The position numbers and the translations under genes were made by a program. The notes beneath the pieces are model-generated. The model did not search any database. It was not told the DNA's origin and saw nothing but the letters and a program-made list of their open reading frames with translations. Shown in pieces: positions 8,432 to 34,555 of a DNA stretch of 64,000 nt (positions are counted from its first letter, which is position 1; each line of letters starts with the position of its first letter). Location: the NCBI RefSeq assembly GCF_009734405.1, contig NZ_CP046453.1, forward strand, positions 310,001-374,000. The letters are read 5' to 3'. The stretch comes from Corynebacterium comes (lineage in GTDB: Bacteria > Actinomycetota > Actinomycetes > Mycobacteriales > Mycobacteriaceae).

Positions 8432-9133
8432 ATGAACCAGATGGTCAAGCACACCCGGGACGGCGTCGACGCCCTGCTCGCCTCCGTCAATATCTCCCGC
8501 CAGGAACCCGAACGCCTCGCCTACCTGGGGCTCGGTGAACTCGTCGCCTGGTCGCAGGTGTTCCGTTGGCGCAAGGTGCGGAACACGGCGACACCGTTCC
8601 TCCACCCACTGCTCGCCGCCACCATTCTGCGTACCAACCGTGAACCGGTCCTGCTGGCCGGGATGGCCGGCGGGCTGATGGGCAACGTGGTGAAATTGAA
8701 GCGCCCCGACCAGACGCCGGTGCTGGGTATGTTCGGGATCGCGGCCAATCACGCCGCCTACTCTTCGGCGCTGATCGCCCATGGAGCCCGCCCCTCCACC
8801 GTCCGTGTGGGTCTGCGGACCGCCGCCTGGGTCACCGGTATCGGACTCGCCGTCTGGAAGAAGAAGCAGCTCATCGCTCCCGCGGTCGTTGCCGGTGTCT
8901 TCGTCTCCGCCACGTCCGCGCTCGCCGACGATCCCGCCCTCCGTGACGGCTCCACCCCGGCGAAGGGACTGGGCCATGCGGGCAACCTGCTGCTCGTCTC
9001 CGAGGGCATTGCCCTGCTGCGTGAGACGGTGCTCACCGGCGACACCCTCGGCCACCGGATCCTCGACGCCAAGATGACTGTCGCGGCGGTCATCGGGCAC
9101 GCTCTGATGGTGGATGGGTTGACCAGGCGCTGA
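8432..9133 (+). CDS. YhhN/TMEM86-like membrane protein (lysoplasmalogenase family)
   Basis: The 233-residue product has several membrane segments and the pattern KVRNTATPFLHPLLA followed by LLAGMAGGLMGNVVKL, which resembles the YhhN (TMEM86, lysoplasmalogenase-like) family seen across actinobacteria. Animal members hydrolyse lysoplasmalogens; bacterial function is unproven. The ATG at 8432 sits 7 nt after a -10 box. It ends 1 nt before the convergent end of the next gene. The family call is by general resemblance and is moderately secure. Confidence 0.6.
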   Translation: MNQMVKHTRDGVDALLASVNISRQEPERLAYLGLGELVAWSQVFRWRKVRNTATPFLHPLLAATILRTNREPVLLAGMAGGLMGNVVKLKRPDQTPVLGMFGIAANHAAYSSALIAHGARPSTVRVGLRTAAWVTGIGLAVWKKKQLIAPAVVAGVFVSATSALADDPALRDGSTPAKGLGHAGNLLLVSEGIALLRETVLTGDTLGHRILDAKMTVAAVIGHALMVDGLTRR

Positions 9134-31514: not shown

Positions 31515-32600
31515 CTAGACGTTCAGTGCGCGGGCGAAGGTCGGCCAGGACTTCTCCAGATCGTCGATCCAGTAGTTCCAGGAGTGGGTACCGGTCGGAC
31601 GCAGGTTCCAGTCGGCCGGGATGCCCAGTTTATCGAGCTTGGCCTTCAGGTTGTGAGTGCAGATGTTGGTCGTGGCCTCGATGATGCCGCCCTCGACGAT
31701 GAGGGTGCCGGCACCGGCGGAGGCTGCGTTCGGGTCGTAGCCCTGATCGATGTAGTAGCCCGGCATGTCCCACTCGCCGGCGAGGCCGGTGGCGTTGGAG
31801 ATGTAGAGCTCGGTGCCACGCAGGCCCTCGGCGTTGATGAGGGCGTCGTTGGCGACGTTGTGCGGGCTGCCCATCGGGCCGAGCATCTGGGCGGCGGTGA
31901 CGCCGGCACGGTCGACGGTCAGCTGGGCGGTGGTGTAGCCCAGCGGGCTGGCGGTCTCGGCGCAACCGGAGAAGGAACCGGCGACGTCGAAGAAGCCCTG
32001 CTCAGCCTTCTCCGCCAGGAGCAGGGATGAGGTGGCGGACATGGAGTAGCCGCCGATGCCACGCTTGCCGTTGGCATTCATGAAGTACTCGATGTCCTGG
32101 GGCAGCTCGTGGAGCAGGAAGGTCTCCCACAGCTGCTTGCCCTCGAGGTAGCCGTTACCCGGCTCCGGGGACTCGTCCGCCCAGTTCATGTAGTACGAGA
32201 ACGCGCCCTCCATGGGGATGACGACGTTGACGTTCTTGTCCTCGTAGAAATCCACGATCGGAGCGGAGGTGATCCAGTCCAGGTTCTGCTCTGCGCCGCC
32301 GGCGCCGTTCAGCATGTAGATGGTCGGGCGGGACTCGTTGAAAGTGCCGTCCGGGGTGATGATGGCGACGGGGATGTTACGTTCCATCGAGTCGGACCAT
32401 GCATCCACATGGAGAACGCGATCGTTGTCCGCGGTCTCCTGGCGCCAATCGCGGGAGTCCTCGGTGATCGTGGACTTGTCGCGGACGACGATATCCGGGG
32501 TCGGCTTGCCCACTGATGCGTCGGACACCGGAGCTGCGAGAACAGATGCGCCTATGGTGAGGGCCGCGATCGGTGCGGAAATCTTGCGGAGGAACTTCAT
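31515..32600 (-). CDS. cmt: Trehalose corynomycolyl transferase (antigen 85 family)
   Basis: The 361-residue secreted protein has a signal peptide (MKFLRKISAPIAALTIGASV, cleavage near VSDAS). The alpha/beta-hydrolase nucleophile is in GGYSMSATSS and the catalytic histidine in GTHSWNYW, as in corynebacterial mycolyltransferases. Such enzymes move corynomycolate between trehalose monomycolate, trehalose dimycolate and arabinogalactan outside the membrane; one member also acylates small porins. AAGGAAG precedes ATG 32600. Several cmt paralogues are usual in one genome, and I cannot assign the number. Confidence 0.93.
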   Translation of the reverse strand: MKFLRKISAPIAALTIGASVLAAPVSDASVGKPTPDIVVRDKSTITEDSRDWRQETADNDRVLHVDAWSDSMERNIPVAIITPDGTFNESRPTIYMLNGAGGAEQNLDWITSAPIVDFYEDKNVNVVIPMEGAFSYYMNWADESPEPGNGYLEGKQLWETFLLHELPQDIEYFMNANGKRGIGGYSMSATSSLLLAEKAEQGFFDVAGSFSGCAETASPLGYTTAQLTVDRAGVTAAQMLGPMGSPHNVANDALINAEGLRGTELYISNATGLAGEWDMPGYYIDQGYDPNAASAGAGTLIVEGGIIEATTNICTHNLKAKLDKLGIPADWNLRPTGTHSWNYWIDDLEKSWPTFARALNV

Positions 32601-32928
32601 GGAGTAGCTTCCTTGTGTCGTGTTTCTACCGAGTACGGTTTCTGTCTTGGCTCTACGACGCACGCCAGCAGGAAGCTGTGTGCGTTCACAGGGGTACATC
32701 GTAGTGACTGTCCCGTATGTTAACGGCCCACCCCCGAAAGTGCAGAGGTGCGGGGGTGATTTCCGTGATGGTGGCGATATTCAAGTTACAGAAGTTATGG
32801 ATGGTGAGCAAGGGTTAGCTGTGTCATAATGCTGGGAGATCGTTCTCGGTGGCCCCTGTAACGCTTGGCCGGGAATCGGCGCTAATAACTACTGGAAGCC
32901 TGCAGAAAACCACAGAAAGAAGTCACTC
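32601..32928. promoter_or_regulatory. 328-bp intergenic control region between cmt and a small gene
   Basis: No longer gene is visible. It must hold the divergent promoters. Visible elements are a TTAACA/TACGAT pair for cmt on the minus strand with a short spacer, an inverted repeat CACCCCCG/CGGGGGTG (32729-32758), a direct repeat GTTACAGAAGTTAT (about 32785-32798) and a CATAAT -10-like box (32825-32830) on the plus strand. None can be assigned to a named regulator. Confidence 0.4.
32825..32830 (+). promoter_or_regulatory. -10-like box of the 36-aa peptide gene
   Basis: CATAAT lies about 100 nt before ATG 32929, so this would give a leader of about 90 nt. Confidence 0.4.
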
Positions 32929-33039
32929 ATGACCCCCTTCGAGCAGATCATCGTCGCCATCTTCACCTTCATCGGCCCGGGAGTCCACGGGATGTCCTCC
33001 GCCTCCTCCCAGGCGGCACTGGCACTCGGCCTGTTCTAG
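32929..33039 (+). CDS. 36-residue hydrophobic peptide, candidate envelope protein
   Basis: A short frame encodes a hydrophobic N-terminal half (MTPFEQIIVAIFTFIGPG), a serine cluster (SSASS) and an alanine/leucine end (LALGLF). AGAAAGAAG lies upstream as a ribosome site, the frame uses high-GC codons, and a strong intrinsic terminator follows 16 nt after the stop, so the gene looks like a complete monocistronic unit. There is no signal peptide, as in the small corynebacterial pore proteins PorA and PorH, which are O-mycoloylated on serine. I do not recognise the sequence. Its place beside a mycolyltransferase suggests, but does not prove, an outer-membrane peptide. Confidence 0.65.
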   Translation: MTPFEQIIVAIFTFIGPGVHGMSSASSQAALALGLF

Positions 33040-33055: not shown

Positions 33056-33096
33056 GACGCCTCGGCCACACGGCCGGGGCGTCTTCTCGTTTTTTG
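33056..33096 (+). terminator. Strong terminator after the 36-aa peptide gene
   Basis: A 12-bp stem GACGCCTCGGCC/GGCCGGGGCGTC with an ACAC loop is followed by TTCTCG and a run of seven T. Confidence 0.92.
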
Positions 33097-33145: not shown

Positions 33146-34555
33146 GTGACTGAACATTATGACGTTGTAGTACTCGGTGCGGGTCCCGGCGGCTACGTCG
33201 CCGCCATCCGTGCAGCCCAGCTCGGCAAGAAAGTTGCCGTCGTCGAGAAGCAGTACTGGGGCGGAGTCTGCCTCAACGTTGGCTGCATCCCCTCGAAGGC
33301 GCTGATCAAGAATGCCGAGGTCGCCCACACCTTCACCCATGAGAAGAAGACGTTCGGCATCAAGGGCGAGGTCTCCTTCAACTACGAGGACGCCCACAAG
33401 CGTTCGCGTCAGGTGTCGGACAAGATCGTCGGTGGCGTCCATTACCTGATGAAGAAGAACAGCATCACCGAGGTCGACGGCTTCGGCGCCTTCAAGGACG
33501 CCAACACCATTGAGGTCACCGAGGGCAAGGACGCCGGCAAGGTGCTCACCTTCGATGACTGCATCATCGCCACCGGTTCCATCGTCAACAACCTCCGCGG
33601 CGTCGAGTTCTCCGAGAACGTCGTCTCCTACGAGGAACAGATCCTCAACCCGGTCGCCCCGGAGAAGATGGTCATCGTCGGCGCGGGCGCCATCGGCATG
33701 GAGTTCGCCTACGTGCTCGGCAATTACGGCGTCGACGTGACGGTCATCGAGTTCATGGACCGCGTCCTGCCGAACGAGGACGCCGAGGTCTCCAAGGTCA
33801 TCGCCAAGGCCTACAAGAAGATGGGCGTCAAGCTCCTCCCGGGCCACGCCACCACCGCCGTGCGTGACAACGGCGACTCCGTCGAGGTCGACTACCAGAA
33901 GAAGGGCTCGGACAAGACGGAGACCCTCACCGTCGACCGGGTCCTCGTCTCCGTCGGATTCCGCCCCCGGGTCGAGGGCTTCGGCCTGGAGAACACCGGC
34001 GTCGAGCTCACCGACCGGGGCGCCATCGCCATCGACGACTTCATGCGCACCAATGTCCCGCACCTCTACGCCATCGGTGACGTCACCGCGAAGCTCCAGC
34101 TCGCGCACGTGGCCGAGGCCATGGGCATCGTCGCCGCCGAGACCATCGCCGGCGCCGAGACCCAGGCCCTGGGCGACTACATGATGCTGCCGCGCGCCAC
34201 CTTCTGCAACCCGCAGGTCGCCTCCTTCGGCTACACCGAGGAGCAGGCCAAGGAGAAGTGGCCGGACCGCGAGATCAAGGTCTCATCCTTCCCGTTCTCC
34301 GCGAACGGCAAGGCAACCGGCCTGGCAGAGACCGAGGGCTTCGCCAAGATCGTCGCCGACGCCGAGTTCGGCGAGCTGCTGGGTGGACACCTCGTCGGCG
34401 CCAACGCCTCTGAACTGCTGAACGAGCTGGTTCTGGCGCAGAACTACGACCTCACCACCGAGGAGATCAGCCGCAGCGTCCATATCCACCCGACGCTCTC
34501 GGAGGCCGTCAAGGAAGCCGCCCACGGCATCAGCGGACACATGATCAACTTCTAA
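33146..34555 (+). CDS. lpd: Dihydrolipoamide dehydrogenase (E3)
   Basis: The 469-residue flavoprotein has the FAD motif GAGPGGYVAA, the redox disulfide in GGVCLNVGCIPSKAL, an NAD-binding GAGAIGMEFA and the C-terminal HIHPTLSEA with the active-site His/Glu. It is the E3 component of the pyruvate and 2-oxoglutarate dehydrogenase complexes. GTG 33146 gives the length known for C. glutamicum Lpd (469 residues). It is monocistronic, bounded by terminators on both sides. Confidence 0.96.
   Translation: MTEHYDVVVLGAGPGGYVAAIRAAQLGKKVAVVEKQYWGGVCLNVGCIPSKALIKNAEVAHTFTHEKKTFGIKGEVSFNYEDAHKRSRQVSDKIVGGVHYLMKKNSITEVDGFGAFKDANTIEVTEGKDAGKVLTFDDCIIATGSIVNNLRGVEFSENVVSYEEQILNPVAPEKMVIVGAGAIGMEFAYVLGNYGVDVTVIEFMDRVLPNEDAEVSKVIAKAYKKMGVKLLPGHATTAVRDNGDSVEVDYQKKGSDKTETLTVDRVLVSVGFRPRVEGFGLENTGVELTDRGAIAIDDFMRTNVPHLYAIGDVTAKLQLAHVAEAMGIVAAETIAGAETQALGDYMMLPRATFCNPQVASFGYTEEQAKEKWPDREIKVSSFPFSANGKATGLAETEGFAKIVADAEFGELLGGHLVGANASELLNELVLAQNYDLTTEEISRSVHIHPTLSEAVKEAAHGISGHMINF

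Follow-up and report, generated by a model that had tools for sequence, protein, structure and literature searches.

A conserved 36-residue peptide gene beside a Cmt1-type mycolyltransferase gene in Corynebacterium: a putative small mycomembrane protein under probable sigma-D control

A 36-residue protein gene between a mycolyltransferase gene and lpd

The window, by which we mean the whole 64,000-nucleotide stretch that was analyzed, comes from a genome of 2.89 Mb and contains a 36-codon frame flanked by a divergently transcribed mycolyltransferase gene on one side and lpd on the other. The features of this locus are:

31515..32600, minus strand: mycolyltransferase gene, divergent from the peptide gene, start ATG; nearest Cmt1/MytC (PDB 4h18/8qhf Cmt1, E about 1e-105)
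32698..32724, minus strand: sigma-D-like cmt1 promoter, GTTAACA, 16 nt, CGAT (alignment; one deviating base in locus L008)
32820..32830, plus strand: TGTGTCATAAT, largely conserved and 5' of the following sigma-D-like site, with TCATAA invariant in the alignment
32858..32883, plus strand: sigma-D-like peptide promoter, GTAACG, 16 nt, CGCT (alignment; GTAAC invariant in the window and nine relatives)
32914..32922, plus strand: purine-rich, ribosome-site-like AGAAAGAAG
32929..33039, plus strand: 36-residue peptide gene, stop included (translation, tblastn, profile search, pN/pS)
33056..33095, plus strand: intrinsic terminator, a 12-pair hairpin at 33056-33083 and a T run at 33090-33095 (sequence, folding)
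33146..34555, plus strand: lpd, dihydrolipoyl dehydrogenase, start GTG (TIGR01350, 578.8 bits; cutoff 408.8)

The next-best match of the divergent enzyme, PS1 at 6e-29, fell far below C. glutamicum Cmt1. The frame at 32929-33039 on the plus strand translates to MTPFEQIIVAIFTFIGPGVHGMSSASSQAALALGLF*, and the two flanking signals that an earlier, sequence-only reading of this DNA had described were both found, with sequences similar to the ribosome-site-like stretch occurring at the same place in relatives. The terminator hairpin begins 16 nt past the peptide stop and is followed, six bases beyond it, by six T residues; a 47-base segment including it has a folding energy of -27 kcal/mol compared with a shuffle mean of -10.85 (z -7.0). 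When the best hairpin preceding a T-rich tail was taken from other family members, the median was -20 kcal/mol compared with -7 for shuffled sequences, with 71 of 100 reaching -10, but because the shuffle was crude and 42 of 100 shuffled means also reached -8, we gave this survey no weight.

The sequence-only reading had proposed a tblastn search across Corynebacterium, and this search found the frame conserved as a protein: the 36 residues matched 131 of 201 genomes at E<=1, a threshold at which the weakest matches include chance hits, and the best match outside the window's own genome reached E 1.3e-13. A 27-member profile matched 194 of 242 Corynebacterium genomes at E<=0.1, and a 59-member profile matched 201 of the 242 at E<=0.05, one of these matches (genome G069) being noise. 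With the larger profile, 196 of the 201 positive genomes had one match and five had two. Inspection of 24 genomes with weak or middling hits placed 23 of the best hits in the expected slot beside lpd, the exception being that in G069; 22 of these 23 also adjoined a cmt gene, and in the remaining one the locus begins at that point. Among 41 genomes without a match, lpd was found in 39, and a profile scan of 30 of those loci returned four strongly diverged candidates at the expected place (L207, L208, L212 and L223) and one more that is doubtful (L206, E 0.5), while inspection of open reading frames in 21 of the 30 revealed no further convincing peptide. In a family-level survey of 301 genomes, 30 of them recognized as Corynebacterium, the others gave only eight weak fragments (E 0.006-0.095), and neither cmt nor lpd adjoined the four of these eight loci that were checked.

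Across 36 independent close pairs, 951 synonymous sites carried 286.5 differences and 2829 non-synonymous sites carried 259.5, giving a pN/pS of 0.30 in frame compared with 1.08 and 2.59 in the shifted frames. These pairs supersede our first dN/dS estimate (median 0.63), which was taken over 2471 pairs, many of them saturated. The frame is thus under purifying selection. Since both the tblastn matches across the genus and the in-frame pN/pS exceed what chance would give, it is practically certain that the frame at 32929-33039 is a genuine protein gene, as had been claimed from the sequence.

Gene finders easily overlook a frame of this kind, and the peptides of some relatives are annotated as "hypothetical protein". 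In a protein database, 79 clusters matched at E<=0.01, and no Pfam domain had been precomputed for any of them; the window peptide had no match in Pfam or NCBIfam, and 59 family members gave only single weak matches there (E 0.06 or worse). The gene was not described in the accessible text of the literature searched, which was mostly open-access (including PMC7533341 and PMC5508688), and the accessible parts of PMC3890552 and PMC12113857 likewise contain nothing on the peptide. Small size, hydrophobicity and the lack of a signal sequence would also suit an amphipathic peptide that is secreted and targets other cells, similar to bacteriocins or modulins, or a type I toxin. However, the gene is mostly single copy per genome across the genus and lies beside cmt, no Rfam antitoxin RNA family was detected in the window, and the one PDB match of the peptide, to Clavanin-A, was at chance level (E 0.76); we regard such a function as highly improbable.

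Neighboring genes across the genus

For 119 distinct peptides, the nearest recognized upstream feature was a divergent cmt gene in 109, so the divergent mycolyltransferase that the sequence-only reading had pointed to in the window is the common arrangement. A prolyl oligopeptidase-like gene took this place in two cases, and in eight no feature was recognized within the locus, six of these being C. glutamicum-like sequences, one of which is a second copy. Within the C. glutamicum group, four genomes (G212, G187, G145 and G205) have their best or nearest Cmt1-type gene at a distance of 17-27 kb from the peptide gene. Downstream, the next feature was lpd in 90 of the 119 and a cmt gene in convergent orientation in 24; one peptide gene was followed by a cmt on the same strand, and four by no recognized feature. 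These counts indicate that the tie between the peptide and cmt is tighter than that between the peptide and lpd. Nevertheless, lpd, ramB and a peptidase-like gene also remain close by in many loci; because the neighborhood is often conserved as a whole, gene order alone is weak proof of function, and the pairing with cmt1 could partly reflect plain conservation of gene order.

We also compared the presence of the peptide with the class of Cmt1 homologue in each genome, using cut-offs chosen post hoc (E<1e-130, 1e-130 to 1e-70 and >1e-70 for the enzyme; E<1e-6 for a strong peptide match). In raw counts that ignore kinship, 177 of the 182 genomes that have a Cmt1-type enzyme gave a strong peptide match (one more had a weak match), as did 7 of 44 genomes of the intermediate class (15 more weak) and none of 16 genomes without a Cmt1-type enzyme, where the one weak match was a noise hit. 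Five genomes therefore have a Cmt1-type enzyme without a strong peptide match, and one of them has a weak match in the slot (L179).

Several loci depart from the common arrangement. At the 24 loci with a convergent cmt downstream (L016, L024, L026, L033 and L042 among others), two mycolyltransferase genes flank the peptide gene. In L195-L198 (genomes G087, G007, G192 and G106), a good Cmt1-type enzyme gene lies beside lpd with no peptide in the short gap, where the peptide has apparently been lost or taken a form beyond recognition. In L163 and L164 (G156 and G191) there is no cmt in the slot, the peptide gene adjoins the prolyl oligopeptidase-like gene, and cmt matches lie elsewhere; in G156, an SRPBCC-like frame, assigned by eye, stands between the peptide gene and lpd. 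The genome G145 carries a second peptide copy at L161:4652-4762, distant from both cmt1 and lpd, whose neighbors, judged by eye, we take to be a typA-type GTPase gene and a gene for a secreted protein.

Published and putative sigma-D promoters at the locus

The sigma-D consensus has been given as GTAAC(A/G) and GAT (PMC6338062). On the peptide side, the window has a -35 element that agrees with it, but its -10 is GCT rather than GAT; relatives carry GTAAC(A/G), 16 bases (counted by eye) and CG(C/T)T, and their GCT or GTT can be compared with the GTT of the C. glutamicum promoter P2lpd. On the cmt1 side, the motif fits the consensus except for one base of the -35, and C. glutamicum cmt1 is known to be under sigma-D (PMC6338062). 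The pattern GTAACR-N15-17-CGHT was found in 37 of 100 distinct upstream regions compared with 0.5% of mononucleotide shuffles, and is far from universal. The conserved TGTGTCATAAT further upstream is possibly the extended -10 of a second, housekeeping promoter.

One of the genomes, G212, we take to be C. glutamicum, its PorA being 100% identical to the C. glutamicum sequence. The ProtX sequence recovered from this genome (mass 3874.3) has its serine positions and mass as published, which supports this identity. The homologue of the peptide, MPIHEQIIFFINEILGYGLHAGSSAFSNLSHSIGLF, is encoded there at L152:8919-9029, directly 5' of lpd, with cmt1 about 24 kb off.

In C. glutamicum, 11 directly sigma-D-dependent genes have been listed, including cmt1 and lpd (PMC6338062). 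The promoter P2lpd, located 360 nt 5' of lpd, was active with sigma-D in a reporter and rose on phenol; it has a GTT -10 and was termed a natural sigma-D/sigma-H hybrid, while in C. glutamicum R lpd was not sigma-D-dependent (PMC6338062). It was published as an lpd promoter from which "a potential small RNA" might also start, and no coding frame is mentioned in the accessible text of that paper (PMC6338062). The P2lpd sequence printed in Table 1 of PMC11588781, a 50-mer, maps once in the 13-kb L152, at 8784-8833. When the start site is taken as the last base of this 50-mer, as in published -49 to +1 stretches, it lies 86 nt before the peptide ATG and 360 nt before lpd, matching the distance reported in PMC6338062; the -35 is CTAACG, one base off GTAACR. 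A sigma-D start 86 nt before the ATG means that this promoter most likely drives the peptide gene, and the simplest reading is that P2lpd belongs to the peptide gene in C. glutamicum, with read-through into lpd being possible. The sequence-only reading had asked for a transcript at this locus, and for C. glutamicum a start just 5' of the peptide had already been published. Membership of the peptide gene in the sigma-D envelope response is accordingly well supported in C. glutamicum; in the window, it is suggested by the promoter motif.

If the start site is that of the peptide gene, then sigma-D control of lpd need not be real, which would address the oddity of a central-metabolism gene lying within an envelope-stress regulon, and the "potential small RNA" becomes a protein. 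The converse possibility, that the locus produces a non-coding small RNA or an lpd leader in which the frame is incidental, can draw on that published proposal, on the strong terminator after the frame in the window and on the frequency with which lpd lies downstream (90/119). Nevertheless, pN/pS is low in the coding frame only, no internal stop occurs among the matches listed, a convergent cmt is next downstream in 24 of 119 cases, and in the whole window Rfam at gathering thresholds gave just a tRNA, elsewhere, as its sole match. Given the pN/pS values and the downstream neighbor counts, neither a small RNA nor a leader of lpd can account for the locus by itself, and we consider an incidental frame extremely improbable; the non-coding RNA that the sequence-only reading had itself raised is likewise contradicted by 0.30 in frame against 1.08 and 2.59 in the shifted frames. 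A leader peptide for lpd is also rejected, since lpd is not the next gene in those 24 cases and a strong terminator precedes it in the window.

Separately, a published screen of C. glutamicum transposon mutants with changed envelope antigens recovered insertions both in the promoter region of mytC and in lpd (cg0441) (PMC7775120).

The peptide helix and its putative mycoloylation

AlphaFold2 predicted one helix spanning residues 3-32, with a mean pLDDT of 97.4 and a pTM of 0.53, and its predicted hydrophobic moment is moderate. This prediction agrees with the hydrophobic helix of the sequence-only reading, as does inspection of the sequence with the absence of a signal sequence: the peptide has no Lys or Arg and no cleavage site. 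In 91 distinct 36-codon sequences, a set that excludes 23 divergent slot peptides (L170-L192), the best kept residues are Gly16 (91), Ser27 (90), His20 (89), Asn12 (86), Ser23 (84), Ser24 (83) and Gly34 (83), with Asn12 being absent from the window peptide. Gly16, His20, Ser23 and Ser27 share one helix face at 100 degrees per residue, and the conservation moment tested against permutations gave p 0.001 (81 distinct peptides, effective number about 15). The serine cluster pointed out by the sequence-only reading is kept in most of the genus but is missing or moved in 19 of the 23 divergent slot peptides: by eye, Ser-Ser stands in the family position in 4, in the N-terminal half in 5, and is absent from 14. 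In divergent members the N-terminal half is still recognizable even though the serine pair has often gone.

Most mapped O-mycoloylation sites are serines neighbored by Ser, Gly and Ala; the sites lie in flexible surroundings and follow no strict consensus (PMC11066868); serine-serine signatures have also been mentioned (PMC11175481). Based on these published Ser/Gly/Ala sites and on the modified Ser15 of PorA, which was invariant among 10 aligned homologues, Ser27 and Ser23 are the best candidate sites in the peptide. PorA and PorH, at 45 and 57 residues compared with 36, are similarly predicted to be helical and have no identifiable signal sequence (PMC12632848). Cmt1/MytC is required for mycoloylation of PorA, PorH and ProtX (PMC5310785, PMC11066868), and the peptide gene is paired with a cmt1-type gene. 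In addition, porH and cmt1 belong to the sigma-D regulon (PMC11175481), just as the peptide gene has a sigma-D start in C. glutamicum. ProtX (Cg2875) has 38 residues and no classical signal sequence, and it carries a terminal Ser-Ser and is mycoloylated at Ser37 in a MytC-dependent manner (PMC5310785), whereas the serine pair of the peptide is mid-sequence. Unlike PorA and PorH, the peptide has a double serine pair and a conserved His, and the PorA gene is sited elsewhere in the genome. One C. glutamicum PorA query matched only 30 of 242 genomes at E<=0.01 and had no match in the window's genome (G000) at this threshold, which a diverged PorA could escape.

Homology of the peptide to PorA, PorH or ProtX was rejected, since hhalign of the family gave a probability of 2.4 for PorA and 0.5 for ProtX, and profile scores were no better than those of many shuffles (ProtX 95/500, PorA 64/500, PorH 98/500). 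PorA and PorH are not homologous to ProtX either (PMC5310785). Taken together, the peptide is like these proteins in size, helix, lack of a signal, regulation (for porH) and partner enzyme, and is non-homologous to them.

Our preferred reading, with a probability of roughly 0.6, is that the peptide is a sigma-D-controlled, helical small mycomembrane protein and a putative Cmt1 substrate. A new small mycomembrane protein is what the sequence-only reading had suggested, and much of its basis has held: the gene is real, the pairing with cmt is widespread, the enzyme is nearest Cmt1, and published sigma-D data fit. Against it stand the absence of the serine cluster from some lineages and the lack of homology to PorA, PorH or ProtX. 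Envelope stress would lead sigma-D to switch on the divergent pair of cmt1 and the peptide gene, and the peptide, having no classical signal, would share the route that PorA, PorH and ProtX take across the inner membrane and fold as one moderately amphipathic helix of about 30 residues. Cmt1 would then mycoloylate at least one serine of the GSSxSS stretch, with Ser27 and Ser23 the likeliest targets, and the mycoloylated peptide would insert in the mycomembrane. There, the conserved face formed by Gly16, His20, Ser23, Ser27 and Gly34 may pack on other copies of the peptide or on different small helical proteins, and a pore or a structural element would result. The AlphaFold2 helix, set against the flexible surroundings of known sites, counts against lipidation, yet PorA and PorH are predicted to be helical too; the accessible text of the O-mycoloylome paper does not name the peptide.

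A bolder version, which we put forward tentatively and think rather unlikely as a whole, is that the peptide is a dedicated partner of Cmt1, expressed from the divergent sigma-D promoter region that the two genes share and both a stress-induced substrate and a carrier uniting Cmt1 with the signal-less porins. In the mycomembrane, its Gly/His/Ser face would form a helical pore or anchor that is specific to stress and separate from PorA/PorH. If true, the peptide would be a small mycomembrane protein of wide conservation that accompanies its own lipidating enzyme.

The peptide could instead help Cmt1 without being its substrate: by binding the enzyme or the porins that the enzyme modifies, it would serve as an adaptor, an activator or a chaperone for export. 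The pairing with cmt is consistent with such a helper, and so is the finding that none of the 16 genomes lacking a Cmt1-type enzyme gave a strong match, as is the loss of the serine pair from many divergent members whose N-terminal half is recognizable. The missing consensus for mycoloylation has been said to raise the possibility of adaptor proteins (PMC11066868), and there is a precedent in Cgl2215, a small envelope protein reported to bind MytA, another mycoloyltransferase, and to enhance its activity (PMC10441969), although the partner gene of the peptide is of the Cmt1 type. However, Ser23, Ser24 and Ser27 are among the best kept residues in most of the genus, and a helix that merely binds would need none of them. 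A Cmt1-type enzyme is encoded in four genomes that gave no peptide match whatsoever, and within the C. glutamicum group there are four genomes in which 17-27 kb separate the two genes. We therefore see the helper function as possible but improbable.

A helical peptide of the inner membrane or periplasm that is never lipidated, serving as a stress stabilizer or pore, would fit the predicted helix with its moderate hydrophobic moment, the sigma-D start site in C. glutamicum and the missing serine pair of many divergent members. This option is unlikely in our view, as a protein mycoloyltransferase gene adjoins 109 of 119 distinct peptides and the serines are conserved in most of the genus.

The small mycomembrane protein that we favor would bear on how signal-less peptides reach the mycomembrane and on how Cmt1 chooses its substrates. 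The peptide, encoded once in most genomes that have it, occurs in roughly five out of six Corynebacterium genomes; paired with cmt1, it could be a simpler model than PorA/PorH.

A 44-residue form of the peptide, with the N-terminal extension MEKIAAFFS or MDKIAAFFS, is encoded in C. silvaticum (L098:5467-5601) and in L170 and L171; the C. silvaticum variant carries GSAGLS.
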